Positions 1-49,223 of a DNA stretch of 64,000 nt are shown piece by piece. The notes beneath the pieces were generated by a model that had not been told where the DNA came from, searched no databases, and saw nothing but the letters and a program-made list of their open reading frames with translations. Numbering within the stretch: the stretch's first letter is position 1; every line of letters begins with the position of its first letter. Source of the stretch: Xestospongia bergquistia (taxonomy: Eukaryota; Porifera; Demospongiae; Haplosclerida; Petrosiidae); NCBI GenBank assembly GCA_963965975.1, contig OZ014419.1:3809677-3873676 (forward strand), written 5' to 3'. The translations under genes and the position numbers were made by a program.

Positions 1-884
1 TGAAATATAAACTCTTCTCTTTATCCCTACCAACTAAGTAATTTTAATATACAACAGACTCTTGTCAATTTATAATAATTATTATTGCTCTGTTATAATA
101 AGTATTTTTCATTTTATAGTAGGACTGTTTTCTACTGGAGATGACCATCAACTAATTGAGAGTTATAAACTGAACAATTTAAATGATACCTTCTTTTAGG
201 ATAAGAGTAGAATTGGTCTGTTTACTGACTGGTCTATTGGAGATGATTATCATACTTCTAGTAAGTTAATAGAAACACTTATGTTAAATAATGTTTTTAC
301 TGTTTGTTCTCTCCTGTTATAATAGTAATTTATTCTACATCAACATGTGATGATCTGGATCTAGTATAGTCCTATGATATACTATTTATGACTAGACTGG
401 AGATGATGTAGTGAAGTTCTCTAATAACTACTCTGTGTAAGATTGAAAATCAAACTGCGCATTTTTATTCTCTAGTTGTTTTTATTCTCTAGTTGCAACA
501 TGTTCTAGTTGAGTGCTGGGAATGATGATAGCTGTATCATAATACTTATACTATGTTATAAGTACGATCACTTTTGTCACTCTAATAGGTTTATGATCTA
601 ATCTACATTAAGTTATGACTACTGTAAGTTGACTTATTAAATAGTAGAATTTTCTACTGAATGAACTATTTAATAGGATGGACAGGTTTAATGATCACTG
701 TAGTGATGATCTGATGTACGAGATGACAAAAGTCAAGTATTACTATTGTTTTCCATGCGGATAAAGAGTTGTAAATCTACCAATTCATCTTGTCCTTTGA
801 GTAAATCTCTTTAGCCAAAGAATTTGTTTAAAGCTTTCGTTATTATCCAGAAAGATCAGAATTACTTTATTACTAGAATTCCTT

Positions 885-1010
885 TATTACTGGCATCTAC
901 AAATGTACTACAGTATTTTTACTGGCATGTAGAATTTTACTTCAGTATTTTTTACTGGCATCTAAAAATTTACCTCAGTACGGCATCTAGAATTTTTCGT
1001 GTCCTGTTCA
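885..1010. repeat. ~34 bp minisatellite, left arm
   Basis: Imperfect tandem units of about 34 bp with the core TTTTTACTGGCATCTA. The same family occurs at 45,720-45,815, 48,230-48,350 and 49,505-49,660, so it lies both in the palindrome and outside it. Confidence 0.75.
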
Positions 1011-1639
1011 TTGGCATCAGGGCTTTTGGTAAGTTTTCATTCATGGTTTGTATCATCCTGGAGGGTTTGAAAGTTAGTGTTTATTGTACACTAGAATTAC
1101 AAGTAATAATTGTTATTGGTGCTCTGTTGTAATAGCTATTTTTCATTTTATACTTGTTCTGTAGTGTAATGATATAATGTTCTAATGGTTGTGTGTTCTA
1201 TAGTAAGAATAATGTTAGAACAAAACAAATTCTGTTACATTTAGTAGGTCTATCAATAAACTTATAAGATTGATGTGATAACAATTGCTAATATACCTAC
1301 TGTAAGTTGAATTATTAAATAGTACAATGTCTACTAAATGAACCTCAATTTTCTATAATAGGATAGAAAGGTTAATGTCACTGGTAATGATGATCTTATG
1401 TACATTAACTGATAACTAATGTAAGTTATCTGTTATAATAATAATTATGGACATTTCTTTACTAAACATGTATTTTAATAATTTTTAGATGGACTTTAGT
1501 CTATTATATAGGCGTATCATTAACTCTATGCGTGACTAGACTGGACTGGAGGTGATGCAGTGATGTTCTCTAATAATCACTCTATGTAAGATTGATCTTT
1601 ATATACCTTTTGTTAAACTTTTCATTCTGTAGTAATGTT

Positions 1640-1775
1640 CAAGTTGAGTGTACTGAGATGTTGGAGATGATGAATGAGACGATGATTGAGATGGTGATGG
1701 AGATGATGGAGATGGAGATGGTGGTGATGGTGACTGTGATGATTGAGATGGTGATGGAGATAATGGTTGTATATG
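1640..1775. repeat. ATG/GAG-rich trinucleotide-like run
   Basis: Runs of ATGGAGATG-type triplets. The apparent methionine/glutamate-rich reading frame is a by-product of the repeat. The mirror copy at 47,455-47,590 differs in length by a few triplets, as expected for slippage. Confidence 0.8.
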
Positions 1776-2189
1776 AATAGTTACACTATATATAGTACAA
1801 TTATAAACTGTTTTGGTCTCCTTTAATTGGTTTATCTACTACTAACACTGTGTGGACATCAATAATTGTTCATGGGTCTGGAAAAATATTCTACATTGCT
1901 GGTTGTGGCTCTTTATCTTGGTTCTTGAGGTTGAGAGTCTTTGTGTGTTGAGTATGGTCAGGGATCAGTTTGTGTGTTGTTGTATATGGACATGATAATG
2001 TAATTATAGGTGGTTGATGAGTCTGGGGTATTAATAGGTGGATTTGGACATGGAAGAACTGTTTGTATGTTATTTTGTCAATACTTTCTAATACTGTATC
2101 CTCTTCCTTGTCTTGTGGTACCTCACATCTCATTCATCTTTGTCTTTTGTGTATCTATATACAAACTAACCTTCTAGGTGTTATTGATG

Positions 2190-2448
2190 TATAATGGTGA
2201 CCCTTTCTCTTGATACTAAACCTGATGTCAGACCTTCCATATTTATTTTAATCCCTTTGTGTGTGTCTGTTACTGTATAATGGTGACCCTTTCTCTTGAT
2301 ACTAAACCTGATGTCAGACCTTCCATATTTATTTTAATCCCTTTGTGTGTGTCTGTTACTGTATAATGGTGACCCTTTCTCTTGATATTAAACCTGATGT
2401 CAGACCCTTCCATATTTATTTTAATCCCTTTGTGTGTGTCTGTTACTG
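2190..2448. repeat. Three tandem 86 bp units
   Basis: The phrase ATAATGGTGACCCTTTCTCT begins near 2,190, 2,276 and 2,362, an 86 bp period, with a partial fourth unit. It is followed to about 2,790 by looser repeats built around TTAACCCCTTGTGTG. Mirror copy at about 46,775-47,037. Confidence 0.9.
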
Positions 2449-3323
2449 TGTCATAATGTTCTATAACTTATGTCTGCCATATTAACTCCCTTTGTGTTGT
2501 GTAATCCTGAATTATTTAAACCCTTGTGTGCGTCATGTAATCCTAAATAATTTAACCCCATCTGTTTTTAATTGTTGACCATTGAGTGTGTTGTGTATTA
2601 ACCCCTTGTGTGTGTCGTATAATGTTGAATTATTTAACCCTCCATTTCATAATTTATCCCTTTATGTGTGCTTTATAATCCTGAATAATTTAACCCCTTC
2701 TGTTTCGTAATTGTTAACCATTGAGTGTGTTGCATATTTACCCCTTATGTGTGCTGTGTAAGCCTGAATTATTTAACTCCCTTTATAATTTTTTGTAAAT
2801 TAATGCTGACATCTCATTGTCATTGTATTACTGGTATCTGGCTTGGTTTTGAAGGTTAGGTTTGTGGTGGTCTGGAAGGGTTACATTTTATTAACTGGTG
2901 TTTGTGAAGTCTAGGCTCTTCTTCTCTTTATCCCTAATAAGTGATATGGACTGTTGTACACTAGAATTATTAAGTAATTTAATATACAACAGACTCTTGT
3001 CAATTTATAATAATTATTATTGCTCTGTTATAATAAATATTTTTCAATTTATAGTAGGACTGTTTTCTACTGGAGATGATCAACTAATTGAGAGTTATAA
3101 ACTCAATAATTTAAATGATACCTTCTTTTAGGATAAGAGTAAAATAGGTCTGTTTACTGACTGGTCTATTGGAGATGATTGTCCTACTTCTAGTAAGTTA
3201 ATAGAAACACTTATATTAAATCAAAGTTTTTACTGTTTGATCTCTTCTATTATAATAGTAATTTATTCTACATAATAGTAATTTATTCTCTAGTTGTTTT
3301 TATTCTCTAGTTGCAACATTGTA

Positions 3324-4749
3324 TTCAATGTCCAATGACAAACCTGTCTCTTCTGTCACTCCAAAAATATCTACTGAGAATCCTTTCAATGGTAAAGACA
3401 TAACTGCTGCTTATTTTCGTAAAAGAAGAATATCCATCAATTCTGTATCAGCTGTTATTTTACAAATTATTATGAACAAAATGATTAAAACAATAGAAAC
3501 AACTTGCCGCAAAGATTCTTCACCTGATGATGTCAAACAAAATAATTTTCAGAATGAATTAGATTCTGGGAACAAAGGAGAGGTTAGCAGAGTAATGAAG
3601 AGTTTGTTCCATGTTGATGAAACCAAGTTACAATTATAGACATTAGTATATACTCAATATGCTATTTCTGTAGGATGGCCCTTCTTTGTTAAAGGATGAA
3701 GAAATTAGCTAGCTGAGGTATTCAATTCTACCAGTAGGTATGCTTAATTTGAAGTCTGTCAACACTGCTGCTGTTACCGGAAGATTAATAAACGTTATGT
3801 TCCGTGCTGATACTGGAGGTGCTATGGGAATGAATATGTTGTCAAAGGTAAACATTTTATGTACTATGCCTGCAATTTTTTAAAAACTTTAGTTGCTTAT
3901 CAATTTTGATAATTATTGTTTAGGGAATTCCTTGAGGTTTCTTCAGAAGCAGTTTCCAGAGTTAGAAGTAGTTAGTCTTAGTGGTAATTAAGACAAGAAA
4001 CCTTCTGCTATTAATTGGATAGAAAGTCGTGTTGTGTGTGATGCAACAATACCTGCTCAAGTAGTTGAAAATGTATGTTAATTTTAATATATGGAATAAC
4101 TCTATTCTTGGGACATCAGGTTCTCAAAACTTCAATAGATGCTCTCGTTGATGTTAATACCAATAAGAACCTTGTGGAGTCAGCAATGGCAGGCTCAATT
4201 GGTGGTTTCAATGCACATGCTGCCAACATAGTTACTGCTACTTTATTGCAACTGGTCAAGTAAGGTTGTGCACTTAGCTTTGTTTGTATGAAGACTTGTG
4301 TGATATATTGTTAGGACCCTGCTTAAGTAGTTGGTAGCTCCAATTGTATCACACTTATGGAGAGAGGAGTGGAGAGAGGAGGACCTTATAATAGAGATTT
4401 ATATATTAGCTGTACTATGCCGCCATTGGAAGTAGGAACTGTAGGAGGAGGTACAAGTAAGCTTATGACAAAAACACGCACTTTTTGTGTGATAGATCTT
4501 AGTGTTCATGGCCCATCCCTCAAAGGATAACCAGGTGACAATGCAGGACGAATTAGCTCGTATCATTTGTGGGACAGTGTTGTATGGTGAACTCTCTCTT
4601 GTTTCTGCTCTTGCTGCATCTCACTTAGTTAAAAGTCATTTAACTTTAAACAGGTAAAGCATGTTTATAGCTATTATGTCATTGTATCTCAATCTCTTGT
4701 TCATAGATCACGTCTTGCTCTTTCGACAATAGAAGATAATGAAAAATAA
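3324..4749 (+). pseudogene. HMG-CoA reductase pseudogene, left-arm copy (catalytic half)
   Basis: HMG-CoA reductase makes mevalonate in the endoplasmic reticulum membrane. Family blocks appear in order: RADTGGAMGMNMLSKG (about 3,800), FPELEVVSLSGN and DKKPSAINW (about 3,955-4,020), [17 protein letters not shown] and [20 protein letters not shown] (4,130-4,240), [29 protein letters not shown] (about 4,400-4,460), [10 protein letters not shown], and HLVKSH with the catalytic-type histidine (about 4,625-4,640). Introns are retained, so it is not a processed copy. It is dead: TAA at 3,989-3,991 replaces the residues before DKKP, a second stop precedes VVGSSNC, and there are frameshifts near GIP/LRF and near TATLL. 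The membrane region is missing; the break at about 3,324 joins unrelated repeat sequence. Confidence 0.93.
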
Positions 4750-4872
4750 TTGTTAATATGATAAATGATGTCTGCATTGTACTATTTTATTTATAACTAT
4801 AAATTTTCTCTCATGGTTCTGTTTTTAATAATACATATCAAACCAATTACTTCTAGATGTCAGGTGTAACAT

Positions 4873-7614
4873 TTAAAAATTACGTCTTCTTTTGTAATAG
4901 GAGGCAACTATACTAATTAAACATCCAGTCATTAATACTATCAAAAGTATGCAAACAAACCAAAAACAGCACTCAATGCTATCACTATAAAATCAACAGA
5001 TAACAAAATGATAACAGTTATTAAACAATCCAACCTTGTGTTTCATTTTGAACAGAGAGAATAGATGGAGATATAGGCGTAACAAGTCCACAATACTCAA
5101 CTAAAGATCTTCAGTCAAGTTGCTTAATTGTCTATACAATAATACTAATATGTGAGTTTAGTTAGTATTACAGTGATATATAGGGATAATGACATAATAA
5201 TAGAAACATTATAGACTTACTAGTTCACTACAAAAATAATTAAAATCTAGTGCATACTTTTGTATTTCATCTAAGGAACAAAGATTATAACAATCAGGAT
5301 GTGAAGTAATTAATGAAAATTATCATTCCATGTTTCATTGTGATAGAGAAATTTCACATAATAGTGACTATAATAATACTCCATGAAATGATAAAAGCAT
5401 GCTAACTGTTTACATACCCATTGTTATAGTACAATTCAATGACAAATGCTGCAGTGTAGGATGGTTGAATACCACTTAAAAATGCTGATACTGTTGTATC
5501 ATGCTGAAAACAATGTCAGATTAGTTACAGCAGAATACAAGGCCAATGTCATTGTTAATAGCTTTTATTTCCATATCAGACAATACTTTATCAGTCCATA
5601 AACCTACGACATCAGTCACATCATATAAATTACACTCCAATCAAAATAGTTATTACCTCCCATTATTTGTTTTTTGGTGAAGGTGTCAGAGAATAAACTA
5701 AATGAAAAGTCAGTATAGGCTTAAAAGACATTAACAAATCTACTGAGAACCAAGGTGGCATTGTCAGATTATAAATATACTAAAAACAAAGTATCTACAT
5801 AATTACAATTGTAATGAGTTTAACATTCACCTCTATAAATAAGCCATCTCTAATACTCCAAGCATTCAAAGTGTCAATCTTTTTCCCAGTGTACTATCCA
5901 AGCTCTAAATAAATCTAATCACTTTAATTGTCAATAAATGTGATGGTTTACTTGATGTTGTTGCTCCATTTCTTTGTATTTTGTAGTGTTTTTATCATTA
6001 TCTCGTAACTTTGTATACTCAGGACAATATGTAGAGTATGCCTTTAATAACTCCAATAAAATAACTTAGTTGTCACATAAAAAATAATACAACAATACAG
6101 AAAAATGCATGGAATACAGGGATGGTACTTTTTAGCCATGTTGTAAGAGCTATGAATATTCTATTTAATGTTTCATTAATTAGATGCAAGAACTTTCACG
6201 AATGCTTGGCTATGTGTGAGGGCTGTCTCTATAGAATTTATAACAGGACAGTCTTATATACCGCATACTTGTCCTTTCTGAGAAGTTGTTTGTTGAAGTA
6301 AATGAGCTATCAATTCCATAGTATTAGTAATCAGATTATCATATATTGTTAATACATTTCAATGCAGTATATAATGCCCAATGCAATCTATAATACCTAG
6401 TGACAATGATTTGGTTTAAAACAAGCAATCAATTTTATCAGTAATGCATACAGTATTTCACTATGAAATCAGTATCTTCTAAAACAGTTTATAGGATGAG
6501 TTTTTTAGTTTATAATCTTGTCTTACAGTCTATAACTAATTTTTTATTGTCAATAGAAAACATTAAATTAACCTTAAACCAACCTTGACTCAGTAATGTA
6601 TTAATGTATTCATCAAAGTGGACTTAGTAAGTGTTGATGTCATTTGGAGGAGGCTTAAAATTAGCTATCATAATGGAAACTTTGGACACATCACATTTAT
6701 TTTTAAAAATTTGCCAATTCTAAATATAAAGGTTTAAAAACATTAGCTTTGGTTTATGGTATGAGACTTTTTATTTGGAAATATACTTCCCATATGATTT
6801 GTTTATGAAAAATAACTTCTTAATTGTTATAAAAAAATTAATTCTAAATTCATATTTTTTTACATCCCACATCATTTTCCGATCTGAAAGGAAGGCAAAT
6901 TGCATTAATTGCATTATGTGGAACATAAAGAAGATACTTACACCAAATACTGAATATAGATTTAACATCCACCCAACAGAAAACTAAACTACACCTTATC
7001 GTCTTCTTTTAGTACAGTATGGACAGGAATAGGCTACCACTATAAATCAGTCTTAAATTTCTACAATAGAAATTACTTATTATGGATGTTAAAATAAAAT
7101 TGTATACTTGTGATTCATCAGGTGGGTACAATCCAGCTAGCAGACTCTCTGCACTCATTAATGTTCTATCTAAATCTGTGCTCCGGATATATACCTTAAT
7201 GTATATTTTTATGTATGAAAAAATCCCTCATTAACTAAATTCACCTGGTTTCTGGAATAATTTTTATACATGTAACCAAATTTAATGTATTTCGACTTCA
7301 ATATACGTCTAAGATTATAAGCTTCTTTCATTCCAATCTATGAAATATGAGAATAGACAGACGGTAATGTATTCAACTTACAGTTGTTAGTTGTCCAAAT
7401 CCTTGAGGCCATGCATCTTCCTGTTATGGGTAAGTTTCAACAGGGCTTCGATCACCATGTTGGAATACCTAATTTGAGACAAAGACTTTTGAAATAAAAT
7501 TCATAAACATTGCATAAATTAATTGACATGTATACTACTTAACACTCTTCTCTCAAAGGCAGTGATGAGACTAAGAATAACCTGGACTGGAGATATATTT
7601 ATTATTGACGACAT
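4873..7614 (-). pseudogene. Histidine acid phosphatase pseudogene, left-arm copy
   Basis: Reverse complement of the right-arm copy at 36,523-39,059, where the domains are described. It is convergent with the HMG-CoA reductase remnant, about 120 bp from its end. It shares the right copy's stop codons (TAA at 7,434-7,436 after ETYP; TAG at 7,034-7,036 inside the block before PIPVHTV) and its changed active-site residue (QHGDR instead of RHGxR). Exons and introns are retained. The HDTT catalytic block lies near 5,490-5,505, and the C-terminal membrane segment with basic tail ends at 4,873. Confidence 0.88.
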
Positions 7615-7689
7615 AGTCAAAGATCCTTAATGAGACATCTTACATGTTCATACCCATAGACAACTACTTATATCATGGTAATTCAAAAA

Positions 7690-8480
7690 ATATATTAATT
7701 GGCATAGATATTGATAAGACTGCTTCTGATACTGTTAAAAACTCAAGTGAGATGTCCCAAGTGCTCACTCCAGCTGTCACTGAAAATCACTACATCATCC
7801 AAGTAGGCTGCTGCAAATTATTCCATACCATGTATATTGTAAAACCTTGTCCATTAATCGTTGAAATGTCGCCGAAGCACCTTGGAGACCAAATAGCATA
7901 AAATTGAACTGAAATAGCAAGAAAGGCGTCACAAATACTGTCTTGGGTCGGCCATCCTTGGCAACAGGAACCTGCCAATAACAACGAGTAAGGTCCAATG
8001 CTGAGATGAATTTGGCCTTGCCAACTTGGTTGATCAGCTCGTCCACTTGGGGCATTGGATATGCATCACCTACCAAGAGTCCGTTCAAATGCTGGTAATC
8101 AACACACAGCTGTAACGATCTGTCCTTCTTCTTTAACAGTACCACTGGAGCACTCCAAGCAATTTCTGGTGAAGCATTTGATCCAACTCTTGTTTCACAG
8201 TGTCTCGATATGAGTGTGGTAGGCAATAAGCCAGCAGTCGTACTGGATTAGCACTTCAAGTGAGAACATGGTGTTCCACCAAATCTGTACGATCAGGAGT
8301 ATTACTAATCACATCACTAAATCTCTGTAACAACTGCATCAGGTCCTCCTGTTGGAATTGGATGAGATTATTTCCAAAAATTGGTTTACCTTTTGACTGT
8401 GTTTTACCACTCTCTGTCCAGGTAGGTTTGTCCTGCTCCCCGTCCAATACTTCTGAACTATATAGAGCACTGCTTGACTG
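7690..8480 (-). pseudogene. Ty3/gypsy reverse transcriptase remnant, inverted copy
   Basis: RT palm and fingers blocks are readable: APVVLLKKKDRSLQLCVDY, DAYPMPQVDELINQVGKAKF, SALDLT (first catalytic Asp), CYWQVPVAKDGRPKTVFVTP, FGLQGASATFQRLMDKVLQ. A frameshift follows and YLDDVVIFS (catalytic Asp pair) lies in another frame near 7,791-7,803. Homology decays to VFNSIRSSL near 7,700. RNase H is absent. Confidence 0.9.
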
Positions 8481-9400
8481 GGCATACCATTCACATAACA
8501 TGTGAATGGTATGCCCACGCGTGTCCACAATATAATTGACTTCTCCCATGCATTAGTTTAACGCATGGGAGAAGGCAATTATCTCATATGGCCCTTGCCA
8601 TTGAGCAAGCAGTTTACTACTGGATGTGTGAAGAAGCACCAGCACTTGCTGTCCTGGCTTAAACTCACAAGTACGAGCATTGCGGTTATACCATTTACGT
8701 TGTCTCTCCTGGGCATTAGATAAATTACTCTTCACCAGCTCTGTCATTTTTGGTAGCTTGTCAGAAATTGAGAGGATATGAGATACCACACTGTGTTCTT
8801 CTCCAGGCCTTCCAGCTTCCCAGGTATTCTTTAGCACATCCAAAGGACCATTCACAGCTCTCCCATACAAAAGTTCAAAAGGAGAGAACCCTGTGGATGC
8901 CTGAGTCACCTCCCGATAAGCAAACAGGAGATTGGCCAACATTTTGTCACAGTCCTTGCCTTCACTTATTGCCGCCTTCTTTAACATGGACTTTAGAGCT
9001 TGATTAAAACAATGCACGAGTGTCTGTTTGAGGAGGGTAGGGGCTTGTTTGTAACTGATGGATGTGAAGCATTTTGTATAATTCTGATTCGAGTTAGATG
9101 TAAAGTTATCCTCTTGGTCTGCGAGAATCTCATATGGATGCCCATCCAATATCTTTACAGTAGACCATCCTTCCAGTAGAATCGTATTCCACTACCAGTT
9201 GTACGATCTGCATAAACTTTATTCCTGACTGTTTCCAAAGATGGGTCAGTCTTCTGTAGTGTCTTCAATACTTCTGAGTCAATCCTTCGAATATGGTTGT
9301 CACCTGATCCTCCACTTCTGTTGTGCTGTTTCTTGTTTGCTCTCTTCATCTTTCTGCTTAATCTTCTCTTCTCTCAAGATTTCCCAAACAAGTCATCATC
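8480..9400 (-). pseudogene. Integrase remnant, inverted copy
   Basis: The basic N-terminal linker is present (to about 9,155), but the HHCC zinc finger and first catalytic aspartate are deleted: sequence around ATTGGATG joins the segment encoding PYEILADQEDNFTS. The second aspartate (ADQ) remains. The third catalytic position reads LVHCFNQ where the family has a glutamate. AYREV..ASTGFSPFELLYGR and the GPY/F-type LLAQWQGPYEII follow. The tail VNYIVDTRGH contains a 35 nt hairpin at 8,481-8,515. Confidence 0.85.
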
Positions 9401-9619
9401 TATCATCGTCATCTAATCTGTCTCTTCACTCTTGTCTTTTTGCTCCTTATTATGATCATCATCCTTTGCTTCGGTTCTCTCTTCCTCTTCATTAATGGGT
9501 ATAATGTCACTCCGTATTTCTCCTCTAATTGTTTCTTCTCAACCTTTTGTTTCTTCTGTTTCCGTACTGCGGCTCTTGTTATTATTCCCATGGTCTTCTC
9601 TGGTTCCCCTACTCCAGAG

Positions 9620-10239
9620 TTCTGTTGAGTTAATGGCTTGGGTAGTTGGGACACATCTGTACCCAATAGTACTCCCACAGGTAAGCGATCTGAGACAGCA
9701 GCCTCAACTTCTATTGGTTTTCCCTCGACTTCCATGTGCACCTTTGCCAAGTGATACAACACTGTGTCCCCAAGTGCACAACACACCGTAGTAGCTTTCC
9801 TTCAAGGAACACCTCTTCAGGTACTAGCTTCGGATGCACTAGAGTCCTTGAGCAACCTGTGTCTAATAAAATATTTTTCACATATTTACCCTCTACTGTC
9901 CCAGATCTCATTATTCCAGACTCCTGCTGATTGCTTTCCATTTGACAAGTCCACTAGCCAGGAAGTAATCATCAGCATACTCTCCAGGCTCCTTGCTTGT
10001 CTTAGGCTTACGCTCCTTCACCCATATACGTACATAAGGAGAGCAGAAAATGTCTTTGGTGACCTCCGTCGAAAATCAGCTTGAGCTTGAGCATTTGCTT
10101 CTTCATCAAGTTCTTCTGTACCATCTACAAAACCCCATAGTTCCTTAGCCAACAGCATATGTCACATCTGGAAATTCAATGTAGTCCAGTTTATGCTATC
10201 TAACTTGTTAATCAACCATTTATCATATACAGCCCTCAT
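9620..10239 (-). pseudogene. gag and aspartic protease remnant, inverted copy
   Basis: The gag portion (10,239 to about 9,945) resembles copia-type gag around LLAKGLWGFVDG. A SCAN/capsid-like stretch (KPKT..EA..YADDYFQAR) follows. The protease has LLDTGCSRTLV with the DTG triad, then, after a frameshift near 9,780, a flap-side stretch ending VGVLLGTDVSQL. Stops and frame changes interrupt both. Confidence 0.8.
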
Positions 10240-10329
10240 TTTGACTCTTGCTAATTCGTGGTCCAAAAAAAGATTATATACAGAGCAGCACAACTACAAA
10301 CCTGGGTCTAGTGTGACGAATTTAGTTGG

Positions 10330-10686
10330 AGACTGGGCTCATAACCTGTTGAAAGTTTTTATATAGTTCTATGGTAAGACTGCAGCTGAGTACACAGCTA
10401 TGTTCTCGTCACAACTAAGTTTAAGTAGAACTTGTATTTAAATGAAATCAATATGGTTAAGAACTAACAATCTGAAGAAAAATCAGGTATTTATAACAGA
10501 AATCAAACAAAGGACAAAGATCAAACTAAATGGACAAAGATAAGGACTATCACAGAAATCATGAATATGAAAGTTTACACACACTTAATTAACACTTAAA
10601 TGATTCAAAGAAATAGACTTACAGATAGACTAATTTACACACAAATGAATACAGATAAACAACCTAAACAATTACCTCTTTCAACA
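10330..10686 (-). repeat. 5' LTR plus primer-binding site, inverted copy
   Basis: The LTR spans 10,347-10,686 (340 bp). In element orientation it starts TGTTGAAAG and ends CTTTCAACA, a perfect 9 bp inverted terminus. GGTTATGAGCCCAG follows at once (10,333-10,346), a candidate primer site resembling the complement of a tRNA-Met anticodon arm. Confidence 0.8.
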
Positions 10687-10871
10687 GCTCAATCATTATT
10701 ACCATGTGACATGACTTGTTACATGAATAAGACATTGTTATACATCATAAATGTGGGCATTAATTAAAATATGAGACCAAAGTGTCTCATAGTCTAATTA
10801 ATTTGTGGTTAAACAGAATTTTGTGTATAATATGTTTAATGAATGAAAGAGTATTTTGTTCTGTCAAGGTA
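10687..10871. repeat. AT-rich tail B of the CT-rich repeat, inverted
   Basis: About 185 bp between the LTR start and the GA-rich block; identical in order to 16,481-16,667, 25,441-25,633 and 32,870-33,056. It is paralogous to tail A (for example 13,131-13,260): both contain AATTAATGCCCA and AATAATGATTGA in the same order. The LTR element inserted just after that second phrase. Confidence 0.75.
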
Positions 10872-12245
10872 CTACAAAAATAAGAGAAGCGAGAGACTCT
10901 GAAAAGAAATAGATAGAGAGACACCGAGTGTGAGAGAGAGACTCCTAATGTGATGGAGAAGAGACAGAGAGCAAGAAAGACTGAGAGATTCTATGAGTGT
11001 GTGTGAGAGAAAAAGAGAAAGAAAAAGAATGAAAGGAACTAAGAGTGTGGGTCTATGAGAGAGAGGAAAAGATAGAGATAGCCTCTGACAGTGATGCTTT
11101 ATGAAAGAGAGAGAGAGAGAGAGAGTGGAAAAAGAAAGAGACAATGAGAGACTCTGAGAGTGTCTGTGTGTGAGAGAGAGAGGGACAGAGAGACAAAGAG
11201 AAAATTAGAGAGAAAGAAGGAGAAATAGAGACTGATAGGGAGACTCCGAGAGAAAGAGAGAGACTCACAGACTGGGGAAGGAGAAGGAGAAAGAGAGAGA
11301 CTGACAGACTCTGAGTGTGTGTTTGTGTGTAAGAGAGATTCTAACAGTGATAAACTATGAGAGAGAGAGTAAGAGAAAGAGAGAGACAGAGAGAAAGAAA
11401 GCCAGACAGAGACTCTGACAGTCTATCTGCATGGATCAGAGAAGGACAAACACACAGAGAGAAAATAAGGGAAAGAGAAAGAGTTATAGAAAATGATAAA
11501 GACAGACATTTCCAAAGTGAGAGAGTGAGAGAGTGATAGAGAGAAAGAGATAATCCTATTGCGAGGAGAGAGACAAGGAGAAAGATTGACAGAATTTAAG
11601 TGTGTGTGTGTATGAATGACAGAGAGACTCTGAGAGTGAAAGACTATGAAGGTGAGACAGATACTCTGAGAGAGAGTAAGGACTTCTGTTGTAAAGGAGG
11701 ATAGAAAAAGAGAAAGAGAGAGAGAGGGAGAAAGCGACTGAGAGACTCTATGAATGTTTCTGTGACAGAGAAAGTGAGAAAGAAAGAGTCACACAATCTG
11801 AGCGTGAATGTGTTAGAGAAAGACTTTATGTGTAATATCTTATGCAAGAAAAAGATACACACATACTAACACAAACAGACAGAGTGAGACTCTAAGAGTG
11901 TGTGTGTTGTGAGTGTATGTGTGTGTGAGAGAGAGAGATATAGAGAATTTGATAAGGAATGTGAGACTCTAAAAGAGAGAGTTCTAAAGTGAGGGAAGGA
12001 GAGACAGGTAGAATCTGTGTTTCTTTGTATGAGAGAGATAGACTTCTAAATTTAGAGAGTGAGAGAGAAAAAGTGAAAGAATTTGATAGTGTATGTCTCT
12101 GTTTAATAGAGAAAGAAAGGGACTCTGAGAGTGATAGACTATGACATAGAGAGAGAGGGATAGGGACTCAGAGAGTGACATAGAGAGAGTGTGAGAAAGG
12201 TGAGAGACTATGAGATAGAAACTCTAACGTATGTTCTCTGAGAGA
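10872..12245. repeat. GA-rich block (inverted CT block B2)
   Basis: Imperfect GAGAGA runs broken by fixed phrases. The order of interruptions matches the reverse complement of 15,103-16,480. Serine/leucine-rich open frames here are artefacts of CT repetition. Confidence 0.9.
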
Positions 12246-12740
12246 GACATTAAGGTTTATAGCCATTTCGTCTAATCCTATTTCGTCTAACAAAATGTAC
12301 AATTGTCCCATATCGTCCAAAAAATAAATTCATTTAAATAACAGTAATTACAAAGATACCCAATGGGTATATGCCTTAAGTTCTTGTAACATATAGTGTC
12401 CTACTTCATGCTTTCCTTAATAGTTTTCAGTCTGTTCTCATGGTTTCTGTACTTTCTTCTTCTTCTTGGAAGCCCTCCTGCAGCCTGCTATCACCTGATG
12501 GATGTACAACGTGAAGTCAGCATCTTCCCTGATCAACTCCACTACTGTCTCTGTTACATTTTGGAGGTGGGAGTGATTCTCATTGCAAGAGACTAGCTGA
12601 TCATGAACGTCAGTGACTGCTCTTCCAGGACAACTTCTGTCTGGACATCTCCAACACATCTATCCATCTGCTGTTCTTCAATTGAGTGTGTACCTATAAC
12701 CTGGTGTATAAGTGACTTAGCTCCTCTTGCTGTTGTAACA
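12246..12740 (-). mobile_element. FLYWCH transposon, inverted copy, cut at the palindrome axis
   Basis: Begins with the 11 bp target duplication AGACATTAAGG (12,246-12,256) and the terminal repeat GCCATTTCGTCTAATCC, then encodes the CWRCPDRSCPGRAVTDVHD finger on the minus strand. It stops at 12,740 inside the element, where it is fused to CT block A. The palindrome break thus lies within this transposon. Confidence 0.85.
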
Positions 12741-12741
12741 T

Positions 12742-13130
12742 AAAGTCTCTTAAATGTTTTCTCTTTCACTCTCTTCCTTATTTTAGGAGTCTCTCCCGGA
12801 GTATCTCTCTTACAGTCACTCTCTCTAGCTGTCTCTCTTTCTGTTTCTCTCTCTCAAAGTCTCTCTCTCTCAGAATCTTTTCTCTCAGTCAGACCCTCTC
12901 TCTCACTAACATGCACTCAGAGTCTCTGTCTCTCTCTCTCAAGCAGTACCTTTTTCTCTTTCTCTCATCCTCAGGGCCTCTCTCTTTTTTTCTTTCTCTG
13001 TCACTATATCTCTCTATAAGAGTGTGTATGTCTCTTTCTCTCTCTCTCACAGTCTCTCTTTCCCACTCTTCTCTCTCTCGGTCCTTCTCTCACTTTTGGT
13101 GTGTTTCTCATTCATTTTCTCTCTATCTCA
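12742..13130. repeat. CT-rich block A, unit 1
   Basis: Starts abruptly with TAAAGTCTCTTAAATG, equivalent to unit 2 from 19,912. Imperfect TCTC runs with fixed interruptions; ends at GATTATGCGCAAACTC. Confidence 0.9.
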
Positions 13131-14385: not shown

Positions 14386-14396
14386 CCTTAATGTCT

Positions 14397-19190: not shown

Positions 19191-19194
19191 ATGC

Positions 19195-27965: not shown

Positions 27966-27969
27966 GGTA

Positions 27970-30767: not shown

Positions 30768-30778
30768 CCTTAATGTCT

Positions 30779-34168: not shown

Positions 34169-34349
34169 AATAATAACAAGAGCCACGGTACGGAAACAGA
34201 AGGAACAAAAGGTTGAGGAGAAACAATTAGAGGAGAAATACGGAGTGACATCATACCCATTAATGAAGAGAGCAGAGAACTGAAGCAAAGGGTGATGATC
34301 ATAATAAGGAGCAAAAAGACAAGAGTGAAGAGACAGATTAGATGACGAT

Positions 34350-35655: not shown

Positions 35656-35659
35656 CCAG

Positions 35660-36445: not shown

Positions 36446-36522
36446 ATTTTTTGAATTACCATCATATAAGTAGTTGTCTATGGGTATGAACATGTAAGAT
36501 GTCTCATTAAGGATCTTTGACT

Positions 36523-39059
36523 ATGTCGTCAATAATAAATATATCTCCAGTCCAGGTTATTCTTAGTCTCATCACTGCCTTTGAGAGAAGAGTGTTAAGT
36601 AGTATACATGTCAATTAATTTATGCAATGTTTATGAATTTTATTTCAAAAGTCTTTGTCTCAAATTAGGTATTCCAACATGGTGATCGAAGCCCTGTTGA
36701 AACTTACCCATAACAGGAAGATGCATGGCCTCAAGGATTTGGACAACTAACAACTGTAAGTTGAATACATTGCCGTCTGTCTATTCTCATATTTCATAGA
36801 TTGGAATGAAAGAAGCTTATAATCTTAGACGTATATTGAAGTCGAAATACATTAAATTTGGTTACATGTATAAAAATTATTCCAGAAACCAGGTGAATTT
36901 AGTTTATGAGGGATTTTTTCATACATAAAAATATACATTAAGGTATATATCCGGAGCACAGATTTAGATAGAACATTAATGAGTGCAGAGAGTCTGCTAG
37001 CTGGATTGTACCCACCTGATGAATCACAAGTATACAATTTTATTTTAACATCCATAATAAGTAATTTCTATTGTAGAAATTTAAGACTGATTTATAGTGG
37101 TAGCCTATTCCTGTCCATACTGTACTAAAAGAAGACGATAAGGTGTAGTTTAGTTTTCTGTTGGGTGGATGTTAAATCTATATTCAGTATTTGGTGTAAG
37201 TATCTTCTTTATGTTCCACATAATGCAATTAATACAATTTGCCTTTGCCAATTAATACAATTTGCCTTTGCCTGATAGCTAATTTTAAGCCTCCTCCAAA
37301 TGACATCAACACCTACTAAGTCCACTTTGATGAATATATTAATACATTACTGAGTCAAGGTTGGTTTAAGGTTAATTTAATGTTTTCTATTGACAATAAA
37401 AAATTAGTTACAGACTGTAAGACAAGATTATAAACTAAAAAACTCATCCTATAAACTGTTTTAGAAGATACTGATTTCATAGTGAAATACTGTATGCATT
37501 ACTTATAAAATTGATTGCTTGTTTTAAACCAAATCATTGTCACTAGGTATTATAGATTGCATTGGGCATTATATACTGCATTGAAATGTATTAACAATAT
37601 ATGATAATCTGATTACTAATACTATGGAATTGACAGCTCATTTACTTCAACAAACAACTTCTCAGAAGGGACAAGTATGCGGTATATAAGACTGTCCCGT
37701 TATAAATTCCATAGAGACAGCCCTCACACATAGCCAAGCATTCGTGAAAGTTCTTGCATCTAATTAATGAAACATTAAATAGAATATTCATAGCTCTTAC
37801 AACATGGCTAAAAAGTACCATCCCTGTATTCCATGCATTTTTCTGTATTGTTGTATTATTTTTTATGTGACAACTAAGTTATTTTATTGCAGTTATTAAA
37901 GGCATACTCTACATATTGTCCTGAGGATACAAAGTTACGAGATAATGATAAAAACACTACAAAATACAAAGAAATGGAGCAACAACATCAAGTAAACCAT
38001 CACATTTATTGACAATTAAAGTGATTAGATTTATTTAGAGCTTGGATAGTACACTGGGAAAAAGATTGACACTTTGAATGCTTGGAGTATTAGAGATGCC
38101 TTATTTATAGAGGTGAATGTTAAACTCATTACGATTGTAATTATGTAGATACTTTGTTTTTAGTATATTTATAATCTGACAATGCCACCTTGGTTCTCAG
38201 TAGATTTGTTAATGTCTTTTAAGCCTATACTGACTTTTCATTTAGTTTATTCTCTGACACCTTCACCAAAAAACAAATAATGGGAGGTAATAACTATTTT
38301 GATTGGAGTGTAATTTATATGATGTGACTGATGCTGTATGTTTATGGACTGATAAAGTATTGTCTGATATGGAAATAAAAGCTATTAACAATGACATTGG
38401 CCTTGTATTCTGCTGTAACTAATCTGACATTGTTTTCAGCATGATACAACAGTATCAGCATTTTTAAGTGGTATTCAACCATCCTACACTGCAGCATTTG
38501 TCATTGAATTGTACTATAACAATGGGTATGTAAACAGTTAGCATGCTTTTATCATTTCATGGAGTATTATTATAGTCACTATTATGTGAAATTTCTCTAT
38601 CACAATGAAACATGGAATGATAATTTTCATTAATTACTTCACATCCTGATTGTTATAATCTTTGTTCCTTAGATGAAATACAAAAGTATGCACTAGATTT
38701 TAATTATTTTTGTAGTGAACTAGTAAGTCTATAGTGTTTCTATTATTATGTCATTATCCCTATATATCACTGTGATACTAACTAAACTCACATATTAGTA
38801 TTATTGTATAGAACTTGACTGAAGATCTTTAGTTAAATTTTGTGGACTTGTTACACCTATATCTCCATCTATTCTCTCTGTTCAAAATGAAACACAAGGT
38901 TGGATTGCTTAATAACTGTTATCATTTTGTTATCTGTTGATTTTATAGTGATAGCATTGAGTGCTGTTTTTGGTTTGTTTGCATACTTTTGATAGTATTA
39001 ATGACTGGATGTTTAATTAGTATAGTTGCCTCCTATTACAAAAGAAGACGTAATTTTTA
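36523..39059 (+). pseudogene. Histidine acid phosphatase (lysosomal type) pseudogene, right-arm copy
   Basis: Lysosomal and prostatic acid phosphatases hydrolyse phosphomonoesters using an RHGxRxP histidine and a distal HD pair. Seen here: a possible signal-peptide exon (36,523-36,591), VFQHGDRSPVETYP and WPQGFGQLTT (36,669-36,755), GMKEAYNLRRILKSKY (36,800-36,892), [20 protein letters not shown] and GLYPPDES (from 36,943), [12 protein letters not shown] (37,098-37,142), LTMPPWFS (about 38,180), HDTTVSAFLSGIQPSYTAAF (38,440-38,525), a membrane helix and basic tail SYYKRRRNF ending at 39,059. Intron-bearing, so not processed. TAA at 36,711 and TAG at 37,101 interrupt it, and the active-site Arg is Gln. 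Confidence 0.9.
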
Positions 39060-39176
39060 AATGTTACACCTGACATCTAGAAGTAATTGGTTTGATATGT
39101 ATTATTAAAAACAGAACCATGAGAGAAAATGTATAGTTATAAATAAAATAGTACAATGCAGACATCATTTATCATA

Positions 39177-40226
39177 TTAACAATTATTTTTCATTATCTT
39201 CTATTGTCGAAAGAGCAAGACGTGATCTATGAACAAGAGATTGAGATACAATGACATAATAGCTATAAACATGCTTTACCTGTTTAAAGTTAAATGACTT
39301 TTAACTAAGTGAGATGCAGCAAGAGCAGAAACAAGAGAGAGTTCACCAGACAACACTGTCCCACAAATGATACGAGCTAATTCGTCCTGCATTGTCACCT
39401 GGTTATCCTTTGAGGGATGGGCCATGAACACTAAGATCTATCACACAAAAAGTGTCTTATTTGAGTGAGGTGTTTTTGTCATAAGCTTACTTGTACCTCC
39501 TCCTACAGTTCCTACTTCCAATGGCGGCATAGTACAGCTAATATATAAATCTCTATTATAAGGTCCTCCTCTCTCCATAAGTGTGATACAATTGGAGCTA
39601 CCAACTACTTAAGCAGGGTCCTAACAATATATCACACAAGTCTTCATACAAACAAAAGCTAAGTGCACAACCTTACTTGACCAGTTGCAATAAAGTAGCA
39701 GTAACTATGTTGGCAGCATGTGCATTGAAACCACCAATTGAGCCTGCCATTGCTGACTCCACAAGGTTCTTATTGGTATTAACATCAACGAGAGCATCTA
39801 TTGAAGTTTTGATTTATTGCATATATTAAAATTAACATACATTTTCAACTACTTGAGCAGGTATTGTTGCATCACACACAACACGACTTTCTATCCAATT
39901 AATAGCAGAAGGTTTTTTGTCTTAATTACCACTAAGACTAACTACTTCTAACTCTGGAAACTGCTTCTGAAGAAACCTCAAGGAATTCCCTAAACAATAA
40001 TTATCAAAATTGATAAGCAACTAAAATTAAAAAAAAAATTGCAGGCATAGTACATAAAATGTTTACCTTTGACAACATATTCATTCCCATAGCATCTCCA
40101 GTATCAGCACGGAACATAACGTTTTTTAATCTTCCAGTAACAGCAGTGTGGACAGACTTCAAATTAAGCATATCTACTGGTAGAATTGAATACCTCAGCT
40201 AGCTAACTTCTTCATCCTTTAACAAA
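39177..40226 (-). pseudogene. HMG-CoA reductase pseudogene, partial proximal duplicate
   Basis: Catalytic-half copy running from the terminal STIEDNEK stop (39,184) back through [36 protein letters not shown] (TAA at 39,922-39,924 as in the other copies) to the RADTGGAMGMN block. It ends at 40,226 beside TTAACAAA, where the piggyBac-associated sequence begins. It duplicates 43,329-44,362. Confidence 0.9.
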
Positions 40227-40429
40227 CTGTTTGCTAGTGTATGTATATTGTAAGCTTTCAATCGGGGAAGAAAGCAATCGACTGAGGTAATTTTTTTTCT
40301 TGTAATAATATTACTGTTCTACCTGCAGTTTCATCACTAATAGTATTATAAACTTAAACTGAGTCTTCTAATCTTCCTTTTGGATGCTTTATAATTAGGT
40401 GAGTGGAGTATCTTTATCTGTAAAGACCC

Positions 40430-40880
40430 ACCACCACACATACCACTAACACACACGTACACACACAGACACAAGACAGGAAGAGAAGCATGTACATATT
40501 GACACAACATTCAAGCAAAATGAGGCAAGATATTATAACTATTTGCTAGTGTATGTATATTGTGTGTGTGTGTATGCACATACACACAGACAGGAAGAGA
40601 AGCGCATGTACATATAGACACAACAAACATTCAGGCAAAATGAGGCAAGATATTATAACTGTTTGCTAGTGTATGTATATTGTAAGTGTGTGTGTGTGTA
40701 TGCAGATACACACAGACAGGAAGAGAAGCGCATGTACATGTAGACACAACACACAGTCAGCAATGTGAGGCAATATATTATAATACACAGAGAGAGAGAG
40801 AGAGTTAGAGAAGTATGTACGTATAGACACAAGACACAATAAGGCAATACATTATAGTTGATCACTTGTTTATGTATAAT
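40430..40880. repeat. ~120 bp minisatellite inside the piggyBac 3' region
   Basis: Units share TTTGCTAGTGTATGTATATT, ACACACAGACAGGAAGAGAA and GGCAAAATGAGGCAA. Three to four units, each with GT/CA runs. An isolated partial unit sits at 40,224-40,255, directly at the junction with the duplicated host segment. Confidence 0.85.
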
Positions 40881-41145
40881 GTAAGTCTGTATGTGTGGTT
40901 TCTTGTTATCAGTAGATAATTGTGTGTTTTTGTGGTTACTTCTTATCAGGAGCATAATATATAATAAATAATATTGTATATATATATATATATAGTATAG
41001 TATATTATAGTACATGATATAGTACATGAAAAAAGCAATGAATTTTACATTGTATTCTATGGATACCTGGTATAGCAGTAAATTATATTTATATGACTGT
41101 GATGATTTCTGATAGAAAGATAGGTATAGTATGTATGCAATATTT

Positions 41146-43161
41146 TTAACTTTCATAATGTAACTTTGTGTGGTATATTTCAAAGCACGGATGGATGTGT
41201 AGTGGTGTTTTGCAGATTTTACATTGAAATTGTGTCTGAGATCTTTTTTTCTTCTAGCTCGGCAAACTTCACACTGTGGGCGACCTCCAGATGGTGTTTC
41301 TTTTCTAATTGGCTCAGGAAATGCCCGCTCACTTAGCCTCATAGGCAGAACTCTTGTTGGTGCTACATGTCTCCTATCAACAAGACGCTTGTGGCCTTCT
41401 AATAGACTTGCAACTAAGGAGAGACGAAAGTCTAATTGATTAAGACTTTTCTCAGCCACAGTATTGTACAAGATGCTTGCATTTACAATAGATAAGTCAA
41501 GTAAATGAAAGAATATTCTCTTCCACCACTTTCGAGATCTATGAGAATACCCATAATATAACACCAACTGATCAGACTTATCAACACCTCCCATATGCAA
41601 GTTGTAATCATCTATCGCCACCGGTTTTTGTACTGTCTCAACTCCTTCAGTAACTGCTTTCGTTCTACGTCGCTTTACCATCATATAATCTGTGTGAAAG
41701 GTAGATATCATGTGTACCACTCTCTTGTCTTTCTACTTCAAACATAATATTTTACCATCATCAGTGATATCACTGTATACTTCACCTATACAATGGTAAG
41801 GTAATTTATTGTGTTTTTGTTTTTATTACCTTTAGCTAAACTGGCAGACTTAAATGTCTCGCTAAGTCCCTTCCTATCTTTTCTAATCGTCCCACAAGCA
41901 TCAAATCCATTATCTTTTAAGTCTGAGAAAAGGGTAGGTGATGAGTAATAATTATCAGTGTACACTCTGTATCCCATATTAGAGAGAGGTGATACTAATT
42001 CCATCACTACTCGGTGAGCAAGTCCTTTCTCAACTGAGCCATCTTTCTCTTTCCCTAGTAACATCAATGGTATTGTTCATTGGAAGGTATGTAATAACTT
42101 ACCTGTATATAACTTGAAGTTATACACATAGCCATTTTTAGCATCTGCTAACACCCATGCTTTGATACCCCATTTTGTGGGTTTTTTAGGCATATGTTGG
42201 ATCCATGAGAGCCTCCCTTTGTAACCAATTATGCTCTCATCAGCAGATAGTTCTTGATTATGGATGTATACAGACTGGAATGCTTTTATTACTAAATTGA
42301 GGAATGGCCTAATTTTGTAGATCTTATCGTAGTCATCACTGGTACGATTTGGTTGCTTCTCAGCATCATTGAGGTGGAAGAATTTCATCAATAGTTCAAA
42401 CCTTCTTCCGGACATAATGGCACTGAAAGTCTCATTATGAAACGGCCACTTGGTACTCCAGTATGATCTGTTACACATAAATTGTTACATAAACTTAGAT
42501 GTAATTATATATAAGCATATCTTTATAAGTATTATGTGTAAACAATAGTAAACTAGTACATAGCAAAAATTCACCTCACTGTAGGGAAACCCATTATTCC
42601 CATGGTAATCATGATAGCTAGTAATGGATCGATTTCTTCTCTTCTCATAGGAGTTCTTATCCATTCATGTCTGCGTGCTTTTGGGTGTTGATTGAGATGT
42701 GCTTCAGACGAGGTAAGAATTTGTTCAGCATATCTAACACTCTCTGTGTAGATTAAATTTTTGACTTCTGGTGTGAAGAAAAGATTGAAAAAATCTACTG
42801 GTAACTTCCCACTCATGTCAACAGTTATCCAAGGTTTAGCAGTAAAAGGATGTACTGAGGAGAGAAAGGAAAGAAGAATAAAAATAATTATTTATTTATT
42901 TATATATTATGTATACATACCTGTGTGGGTGGTAGAATTACTAGGAGGGGCTGAAATAGGTGGAGTACTGGGAAAAGATGTACTAGTTTTGTCTGGAAAG
43001 CTGGTAAGCTGATCTGTTGGAGATTCTTCATCTTCGCTAGCAGAGTCATCAACATAACCATCAAAGTCACTGTCTGAATCATCGCTTGGCAGATGATCAA
43101 AATAGTTTAGAAGGAACTCTTGGTCTGATGGTATATAACTTGAGCTATTATTGCAAGCCAT
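41146..43161 (-). pseudogene. piggyBac transposase, five exons, recently disabled
   Basis: Exons about 43,161-42,921, 42,854-42,575, 42,467-42,103, 42,055-41,830 and 41,785-41,146. An acidic N-terminus is followed by the DDD core: ELSADESIIGYKGR (first Asp, about 42,240), YRVYTDNYYSSPT (second, about 41,955), YNLHMGGVDKSDQ (third, about 41,580). Two lesions are visible. TAG at 41,733-41,735 stands where LKWxDKR normally has Trp. A 7-A run at 41,244-41,250 is one base short, putting the cysteine-rich C-terminus (CKICKTPLHIHPCFEIYHTK, about 41,165-41,235) out of frame. Otherwise well preserved, so the insertion is young. Confidence 0.92.
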
Positions 43162-43296
43162 TAAAACTTTAAAACGATATTTCCTAGCTGTATTCAACAT
43201 AAAATAGCTCGTATATGTTGTAAACAATATACAGGCTGTGTATGTGCTGCTGCTGCGCAAAATTGCGCTACCGCCCAAACAGGAAGTGATTATACA

Positions 43297-43332
43297 TGCG
43301 CAAAATTGGGCAAGTGACCATCAAAGGGTTAA
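43297..43332 (-). repeat. piggyBac terminal repeat and TTAA target
   Basis: TTAA at 43,329-43,332 abuts CCCTTTGATGGTCACTTGCC on the minus strand, the typical piggyBac-family end. The host sequence resumes precisely at the TTAA, which matches TTAA 39,177-39,180 in the proximal copy. Confidence 0.9.
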
Positions 43333-43335
43333 CAA

Positions 43336-45400
<2,065 letters not shown>

Positions 45401-48400
45401 CTAATAACATAATACAACAGCTTTAGGGGGAGAGTAATATTATGTAACTACAATGTAAAGAAAAATTAATCATTGTATATGAATGGAACTCCATTCCTAC
45501 AATTATATTTAATAAGAACAACAACACTAACAGCTTATCTCATTGCAACAAACTGCAGTACATGGTTCATACCAAATATGTAGTTCTATATCACAGATAT
45601 AGGTGGAAAATAATAAATTACTGCATATTTATGATGTGACTCACTCAGAGGCAAACTGTGCTAGCGATGTTGCTTTAGAAAGATCATAAATCTATTAGAG
45701 TGACAAAAGTTATTGTACTGAAGTAAATTTCTAGGTGCCAGTAAAAAATACTGTAGTAAATATTTCGATGCCAGTAAAAAAAATGAAGTAAATTTTTAGA
45801 TATTAGTAATAAAGTAATTCTGATCTTTCTGGATAATAACGAAAGCTTAAAACAAATTCTTTAGTAAAAAGTTGTACTATTTAATAAGTCAACTTACAGT
45901 AGTCATCAGTTAATATAGATTAGATCATAAACCTATTATGATACAGCTGTAATCATTCCCAGCACTCAATTAGAACATGTTGCAACTAGACAATAAAAAC
46001 AACTAGAGAATAAATAACTATTATGTAGAATAAATTACTATTATAATAGAAGAGAACAAACAGTAAAAACTTTGATTTAATATAAGTGTTTCTATTAACT
46101 TACTAGAAGTAGGACAATCATCTCCAATAGACCAGTCAGTAAACAGACCTATTTTACTCTTATCCTAAAAGAAGGTATCATTTAATTTATTGAGTTTATA
46201 ACTCTCAATTAGTTGATCATCTCCAGTAGAAAACAGTCCTACTATAAATTGAAAAATATTTATCATAACAGAGCAATAATAATTATTATAAATTGACAAG
46301 AGTCTGTTGTATATTAAATTACTTAATAATTCTAGTGTACAACAGTCCATGTCACTTATTAGGGATAAAGAGAAGAAGAGCCTAGGCTTCACAAACACCA
46401 GTTAATAAAATGTAACCCTTCCAGACAACCACAAACCTAACCTTCAAAACCAAGCCAGATACCAGTAATACAATGACAAATGAGATGTCAGCATTAATTT
46501 ACAAAAAATTATAAAGGGAGTTAAATAATTCAGGCTTACACAGCACACATAAGGGGATAAATTATGAAATGGAGGGTTAAATAATTCAACATTATACGAC
46601 ACACACAAGGGGTTAATACACAACACACTCAATGGTCAACAATTAAAAACAGATGGGGTTAAATTATTTAGGATTATATGACGCACACAAGGGTTTAAAT
46701 AATTCAGGATTACATAACACAAAGGGAGTTAATATGGCAGACATAAGTTATAGAACATTATGACACAGTAACAGACACACACAAAGGGATTAAAATAAAT
46801 ATGGAAGGGTCTGACATCAGGTTTAGTATCAAGAGAAAGGGTCACCATTATACAGTAACAGACACACACAAAGGGATTAAAATAAATATGGAAGGTCTGA
46901 CATCAGGTTTAATATCAAGAGAAAGGGTCACCATTATACAGTAACAGACACACACAAAGGGATTAAAATAAATATGGAAGGTCTGACATCAGGTTTAATA
47001 TCAAGAGAAAGGGTCACCGTTATACATCAATAACACCTAGAAGGTTATACAGGGAGAGTTTGTATATAGATACACAAAAGACAAAGATGAATGAGATGTG
47101 AGGTACCACAAGACAAGGAAGAGGATACAGTATTAGAAAGTATTGACAAAATAACATACAAACAGTTCTTCCATGTCCAAATCCACCTATTAATACCCCA
47201 GACTCATCAACCACCTATAATTACATTATCATGTCCATATACACAACACACAAACTGATCCCTGACCATACTCAACACACAAAGACTCTCAACCTCAAGA
47301 ACCAAGATAAAGAGCCACAACCAGCAATGTAGAATATTTTTCCAGACCCATGAACAATTATTGATGTCCACACAGTGTTAGTAGTAGATAAACCAATTAA
47401 AGGAGACCAAAACAGTTTATAATTGTACTATATATAGTGTAACTATTCATATACAACCATTATCTCCATCACCATCTCAATCATCACAGTCACCATCACC
47501 ACCATCTCCATCTCCATCATCTCCATCACCATCTCAATCATCGTCTCCATCATCGTCTCATTCATCATCTCCAACATCTCAGTACACTCAACTTGAACAT
47601 CACTACAGAATGAAAAGTTTAACAAAAGGTATATAAAGATCAATCTTACATAGAGTGATTATTAGAGAACATCACTGCATCACCTCCAGTCCAGTCTAGT
47701 CACGCATAGAGTTAATGATACGCCTATATAATAGACCATCTAAAAATTATTAAAATAAATGTTTAGTAAAGAAATCTCCATATTATTATAACAGATAACT
47801 TACATTAGTCATCAGTTAATGTACATAAGATCATCATTACCAGTGACATTAACCTTTCTATCCTATTATAGAACATTGAGGTTCATTTAGTAGACATTGT
47901 ACTATTTAATAATTCAACTTACAGTAGGTATATTAGCAATTGTTATCAGATCATCTCTTATTAGTTTATTGATAGACCTACTAAATGTAACAGAATTTGT
48001 TTTGTTCTAATATTATTCTTACTATACAACACACAACCATTAGAACATTATATCATTACACTACAGAACAAGTATAAAATGAAAAATAGCTATTACAACA
48101 GAGCACCAATAACAATTATTACTTGTAATTCTAGTGTACAATAAACACTAACTTTCAAACCCTCCAGGATGATACAAACCATGAATGAAAACTTACCAAA
48201 AGCCCTGATGCCAATGAACAGGACACGAAAAATTCTAGATGCCGTACTGAGGTAAATTTTTAGATGCCAGTAAAAAATACTGATGTAAAATTCTACATGC
48301 CAGTAAAAATACTGTAGTACATTTTTAGATGCCAGTAATAAAGTAATTCTAGTAATAAAGTAATTATCATCTTTCTGGATAATAACGAAAGCTTTAAACA

Positions 48401-49223
48401 AATTCTTTGGCTAAAGAGATTAATTCAAAGGACAAGATGAATTGGTAGATTTACAGCTCTTTATCCACATGGAAAACAATAGTAATACTTGACTTTTGTC
48501 ATCTGGTACATCAGATCATCGCTACCAGTGATCATTAAACCTGTCCATCCTATTAAATAGTTCATTCAGTAGAAAATTCTACTATTAAATAAGTCAACTT
48601 ACAGTAGTCATAACTTAATGTAGATTAGATCATAAACCTATTAGAGTGACAAAAGTGATCGTACTTATAACATAGTATAAGTATTATGATACAGCTATCA
48701 TCATTCCCAGCACTCAACTAGAACATGTTGCAACTAGAGAATAAAAACAACTAGAGAATAAAATACGCAGTTTGATTTTCAATCTTACACAGAGTAGTTA
48801 TTAGAGAACTTCACTACATCATCTCCAGTCTAGTCATATATAGTATATCAAGGACTATACTACATCCAGATCATCACATGTTGATGTAGAATAAATTACT
48901 ATTATAATAGGAGAGAACAAACAGTAAAAACATTATTTAACATAAGTATTTCTATTAACTTACTAGAAGTATGATAATCATCTCCAATAGACCAGTCAGT
49001 AAACAGACCAATTCTACTCTTATCCTAAAAGAAGGTATCATTTAAATTCTTGAGTTTACAACTCTCAATTAGTTGATGGTCATCTCCAGTAAAAAACAGT
49101 CCTAGTATAAAATGAAAAATACTTATTATAACAGAGCAATAATAATTATTATAAATTGACAAGAGTCTGTTGTATATTAAAATTACTTAGTTGGTAGGGA
49201 TAAAGAGAAGAGTTTATATTTCA
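45401..49223. repeat. Outer repeat field of right arm
   Basis: Mirror of 1-3,324 plus part of the segment deleted on the left (45,401-45,976). Contains the 34 bp minisatellite (45,720-45,815; 48,230-48,350), the 86 bp tandem units (46,775-47,037) and the CAT/CTC-rich run (47,455-47,590). No gene recognised. Confidence 0.75.

Follow-up and report, generated by a model that had tools for sequence, protein, structure and literature searches.

The inverted repeat at the heart of this 64-kb stretch of DNA (the window, C9:3809677-3873676) looks to be an inverted join that was inherited in three copies within a larger duplicated array, with no special structure of its own. The array extends over more than 300 kb of C9, a chromosome-sized contig in a genome of 146.5 Mb with 15 large contigs, and is built of duplicated composite units in both orientations. 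It is a segmental-duplication array, a known kind of structure: blocks of more than 1 kb and more than 90% identity are repeated at several places. We favor, with a probability of about 0.6, an origin by one inversion within a tandem array of diverged units, later spread by direct duplication.

The surroundings were compared across C9:3609677-3933676 without gaps and across C9:3947677-3957676, both painted with window positions 30478-64000. Units run in the minus orientation up to 3660249, turn plus as far as 3728497, minus again (two units) as far as 3822416, plus as far as 3885504, minus as far as 3918736, and then plus until at least 3955668, a last block that includes the 14 kb between the two compared pieces. 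Among painted pieces of at least 300 bases in the covered sequence, orientation switches only at junction points. There are five of these, at 3660, 3728, 3822, 3885 and 3919 kb, and they strictly alternate between two types. A 30-base search of the 146 Mb, allowing up to three mismatches, found the head-to-head centre junction at three places, all exact and on one strand; the tail-to-tail (opposite-facing) junction occurs twice genome-wide, both times exactly. We call the head-to-head centres P1, P2 (that of the window) and P3, their left and right arms L and R, and use S1 for an additional minus unit at about 3752-3765 kb. Six blocks match directly between P1 and P2, with identities of 98.3-99.6% (99.1% or more in five), and a wider, gapped stretch (3646226-3760648 versus 3808427-3912578) is 98.3-99.9% identical. 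Identity of the loops is 99.79% for P1/P2, 99.03% for P1/P3 and 98.92% for P2/P3.

A preliminary description of the window had seen in it a single giant palindrome, with inverted arms at 1-12740 and 14618-49223 around a 1.9 kb loop. The inverted match itself is real. It consists of blastn blocks of 95.0-98.5% identity, far beyond chance, and the best inverted match per 500-base bin (1-12740 versus 49223-14618) is 94.3-99.6% identical, with no stepwise drop from bin to bin. In the self-alignment, the innermost left segment, 9143-12740, is inverted relative to 18222-14618 at 96.6% and, about equally, to 34599-31000 at 96.4%; 9913-12740 likewise pairs with 26403-23593 (96.1%). Farther out, inverted matches join 6892-8779 to 37245-35358 (98.5%), 3685-6670 to 40226-37273 (96.7%), 3323-4756 to 44723-43329 (95.0%) and 1-2699 to 49223-46514 (97.0%). 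The inner repeat is present in the right arm as three tandem copies, starting at 14618, 23593 and 31000, so that the window holds no clean two-armed palindrome.

Neither the outer end nor the loop is what it had seemed. Base 1 of the window cuts the left arm opposite position 49223; in the painting this arm runs on upstream as C9:3796989-3809676, which pairs with window 49223-64000. The single 49 kb palindrome is accordingly rejected, its outer end being the window edge. The loop is not unique sequence; it consists of the tail and start of a plus-strand array unit: its positions 12741-13437 equal 19912-20608 at 98.1%, and 13439-13832 equal 29786-30178 at 97.5%. The inner break does fall at a FLYWCH copy, as had been noted, with position 12740 lying ∼80 bases beyond a FLYWCH-like open frame (12441-12659). 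The features of the window are collected in the table.

Table. Features of the window (coordinates are window positions unless prefixed C9).
Feature	Position	Strand	Basis and remarks
Left arm in window, end of minus-orientation unit	1..12740	-	Self-alignment, 500-base bins, painting; continues to C9:3796989
Head-to-head centre junction	12740..12741	.	No microhomology by eye; genome copies C9:3660236, 3822403, 3918723
Loop: tail and start of plus-strand unit with internal deletions	12741..14617	+	P1 loop 99.8% and P3 loop 98.9% identical
Extra tandem copies of retrotransposon-piece unit, right arm (starts 14618, 23593)	14618..30477	+	Self-alignment, painting
Outermost right-arm unit: (CT)n, FLYWCH-like, protease-like, integrase and reverse transcriptase pieces	30478..37245	+	Aligns in register with 12740-6892 of the left arm; family scores come from homologous copies
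Block H, antisense to retrotransposon pieces	37273..40226	-	HMG-CoA reductase catalytic-domain matches ∼39279-40171 (PF00368 genome search), self-alignment
piggyBac-type element (DDE_Tnp_1_7)	40253..43332	-	TTAA at right end (by eye)
Second HMG-CoA reductase block	43329..45976	-	43329-44362 repeats 39177-40226 at 92%; sterol-sensing piece 45128-45400
Outer right arm	45977..49223	+	Pairs with window 3319-1 (self-alignment)
Remainder of right arm	49224..64000	+	Pairs with C9:3796989-3809676; MPP5-like SH3 59524-59769, (CT)n repeats
Weak guanylate-kinase-like piece, below cut-off	57847-58176	within + strand outer right arm	Weak match

The repeat unit combines retrotransposon pieces with HMG-CoA reductase exons and fragments of an MPP5-like gene. 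In plus orientation it reads FLYWCH-like finger (PF04500, E=0.009, below cut-off), protease-like piece (E=0.04, also below cut-off), integrase finger (PF17921, E=1.4e-6), reverse transcriptase (PF00078, E=2.3e-11, scored on the left-arm copy), antisense HMG-CoA reductase and an outer part with an MPP5-like SH3 domain (E=3.7e-11). The catalytic exons of HMG-CoA reductase, antisense to the retrotransposon pieces, were found by a PF00368 search; the sterol-sensing piece matched no Pfam family and matches PDB chain 8djk_A (E=3.1e-14). Judged from their sequence, the HMG-CoA reductase exons in the units look pseudogene-like and the gene pieces look broken. Compared with the C10 copy, two C9 copies have lost the same 14 bases, a change that, by eye, shifts the spliced frame. 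Counts of synonymous and other changes, as a measure of selection on these pieces, were set aside because the stretch spans a likely intron. Near-twin copies of the catalytic exons with longer open frames are found on C10 (3127355-3128832 and 3166480-3169465) and C9 (5712185 and 5721219), and may be the working genes.

The DNA itself appears to have been copied, as a 47-base GT-AG stretch, a putative intron recognized by eye, is kept in all four copies compared (C10, P2R, C9:5.23 and C7:5.55). Single units that combine a FLYWCH-like piece with reverse transcriptase and antisense HMG-CoA reductase pieces lie at C9:4391649-4401256, C9:4627154-4637168 and C9:5225056-5234703. The same three-piece association recurs at C5:4419630-4428442 and C12:3690125-3699933, and reverse transcriptase and antisense HMG-CoA reductase pieces occur together on C7 and C13. 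The window also contains a hairpin-like inverted repeat of ∼417 bases (59954-60371, 86%), perhaps a miniature transposon, and, in both arms, direct repeats of ∼305 bases (35-340 and 2971-3273 in the left arm) that are 94% alike and 2.9 kb apart. A search of the window for structured RNA gave no Rfam match at gathering score.

The two arms differ by several edits, which had been described as private to each. Those edits are present in the window: its left arm lacks ∼1.25 kb that carry the sterol-sensing piece (44724-45976 of the right arm) and ∼440 bases that carry the integrase finger (34600-35039), and its right arm has the piggyBac-type element and tandem units. As private events, the two deletions are rejected, both being common to further palindrome copies. 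The integrase-finger deletion is found in all three left arms, where an identical 50-base stretch spans it in P1L, P2L and P3L; S1 lacks it in the painting. The sterol-exon deletion is shared by P1L and P2L (two of three left arms), and S1 and P3L keep the exon. The piggyBac-type element, likewise not private, is carried by all three right arms and is absent at this site from the four left-arm-type units (P1L, P2L, P3L and S1). The ‘private’ edits are lineage markers of the arms. Of what had been observed in the window, then, the inverted match and the presence of the edits are confirmed; the single giant palindrome and the private standing of the edits are not.

A copy of the piggyBac-type element at C11:3423440-3426506 is 96-97% identical to that in the window. 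On either side of the window copy lies HMG-CoA reductase sequence, in direct repeats of 92% identity, instead of a single site; the flanks of the element were therefore probably rearranged after insertion. In P3R, the right end of the element is followed by a ∼126-base tandem repeat in place of HMG-CoA reductase sequence; this repeat starts at the TTAA end of the element and has 24-base sub-repeats (L035:7988-9912).

Arm-to-arm divergence in P1 and P2 is 1.2-4.2%, with extremes of identity of 95.85% (segment M) and 98.79% (segment H), both in P1. Among 15,788 aligned sites in five segments of P1L, P2L, P1R and P2R, 175 diagnostic sites unite the two left arms and the two right arms, three group by palindrome and two are crossed, so the arms were distinct lineages before P1 and P2 were duplicated. 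Conversion between arms since that duplication has been slight. This pattern contradicts, for P1 and P2, a maintained functional palindrome homogenized by arm-to-arm gene conversion, an explanation that would suit the size of the structure and the gene-derived content of its arms. Mammalian sex-chromosome palindromes reportedly keep more than 99% arm identity by gene conversion (PMC8981503). The window resembles them in its large inverted arms and short spacer; the arms of P1 and P2, however, fall below 99% identity and carry no conversion signal. The P3 arms do reach 99.56% in segment H, where P3L is nearer to P3R than the five other copies are, which implies some exchange between arms or units. 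With the pattern in P1 and P2, and with gene pieces that look as broken as those described above, homogenization for function is highly improbable, and most likely the structure does not serve any function as a palindrome. In segments H and O the nearer relative of P2L is S1, not P1L, which implies a mosaic duplication history.

The favored history would start from an array whose units, by then diverged, stood mostly head to tail. One inversion within it would have created, at its two ends, the head-to-head and tail-to-tail junction types; direct duplications would then have multiplied the inverted block, the copies of which are now 96-162 kb apart, and tandem expansion, deletion and piggyBac insertion would have edited the unit lineages. 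The alternation of head-to-head and tail-to-tail junctions is what one inversion followed by direct duplication would leave. Several observations count against this history, among them the exchange seen in P3, the mosaic duplication pattern and the 95.85% identity of the P1 arms in segment M given above. The breaks of a single inversion should rejoin exactly, but the minus arm stops at unit coordinate 31000 and the plus segment that meets the tail-to-tail junction stops at 31438, an overlap of 438 bases, and the partner break sites of the two junction types are ∼1.9 kb apart, a loss of that length. A staggered break with loss of sequence would therefore be needed, and the closeness of the break coordinates is itself weak evidence because the units repeat. 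A further observation concerns the most similar inverted units, and it bears also on the origin that had first been proposed.

That proposal was fold-back repair or a hairpin-capped break, whereby hairpin formation or template switching copies one arm as its reverse complement, to be edited and copied later. Fold-back priming has been described in print as a route to inverted duplication (PMC10622511). The window shares with such events a head-to-head join with a short spacer; the join is single and looks blunt by eye, and the asymmetric spacer is contiguous with one arm. In the shorter core, moreover, the nearest inverted partner of P1L is the innermost right unit of P1 (97.91%), and this P1 centre pair is the closest of all 80 inverted pairs, as fold-back would predict. 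The margin is small, as the next pair stands at 97.88% and others reach 97.84%, whereas a fold-back origin should leave the innermost arms distinctly more similar than other pairs. The left arm should also have equaled the innermost right unit at birth, yet over a longer segment the identity of P2L with that unit (97.08%) does not exceed its identity with the outermost right unit (97.18%) or with the first unit of the third palindrome (97.13%). Across the 18 array units above the length filter (shorter or truncated units were left out), the mean identity of inverted pairs is 97.30% (n=80) and that of direct pairs 97.54% (n=73), or 97.40% (n=68) once pairs above 99% are dropped (five direct, none inverted). 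Finally, fold-back does not require the tail-to-tail partner junction that is present here. Since the arms differ about as much as two array units generally do and both junction types exist, a fold-back origin is not favored and seems less likely.

An assembly artefact, from misjoined haplotypes or from chimeric amplified reads folded back on themselves, must be weighed against the inversion history as well. P1 and P2 are mostly more than 99% alike, a level possible for haplotypes, and a genome note on another sponge assembly mentions ultra-low-input libraries and the removal of 28 haplotypic duplications (PMC12398682). Arms that arose by artefact should differ by ∼0%, not by 1.2-4.2%; the same centre junction would not be expected at three places, nor inherited lineage edits in fold-back chimeras, and the 324 kb examined contain no N bases. 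P1 and P2 may be two haplotypes that were falsely duplicated, but both would then still carry the palindrome. An artefact is thus an unlikely source of the inverted join, and a fold-back artefact in particular is unlikely given three copies with inherited edits. The preliminary interpretation is upheld to this extent: with centre, arms and edits recurring in two further copies and with arms this diverged, the inference of something older than a mere fold-back of the assembly is supported.

Mosaic arrays of segmental duplications, some copies direct and others inverted, are known, for example, among primate pericentromeric duplications. The C9 array resembles these in its composite units of gene fragments and retroelement pieces, its direct and inverted copies of high identity, and its related units on other contigs. 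It differs in belonging to another species, and a centromeric position would be conjectural. One could imagine that the composite units mark the (peri)centromeres of many chromosomes and that the inverted blocks on C9 are a young higher-order array made from segmental duplications rather than satellite DNA. The array lies at 0.48-0.53 of its contig, and enrichment of the unit toward mid-contig did not reach significance (p=0.057 by a Mann-Whitney test on hand-picked loci, 16 close ones versus 50 from among the farther matches); we consider the idea quite improbable. The retrotransposon pieces recall Gmr1-type Ty3/gypsy elements, in which integrase precedes reverse transcriptase, as they show protease-like, integrase and reverse transcriptase pieces in that order on one strand. 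Unlike such elements, the array holds pieces only, with no long terminal repeats identified, and the likeness is one of domain order. Among the matches listed in a literature search, no title gave an account of such an array in a sponge.

The window illustrates that a repeat array, cut at a window edge, can mimic one giant palindrome. It also suggests that successive events (inversion, deletion, insertion of piggyBac and direct duplication) can be read in order in one segmental-duplication array, and its unique junction sequences may be used as tests in relatives.
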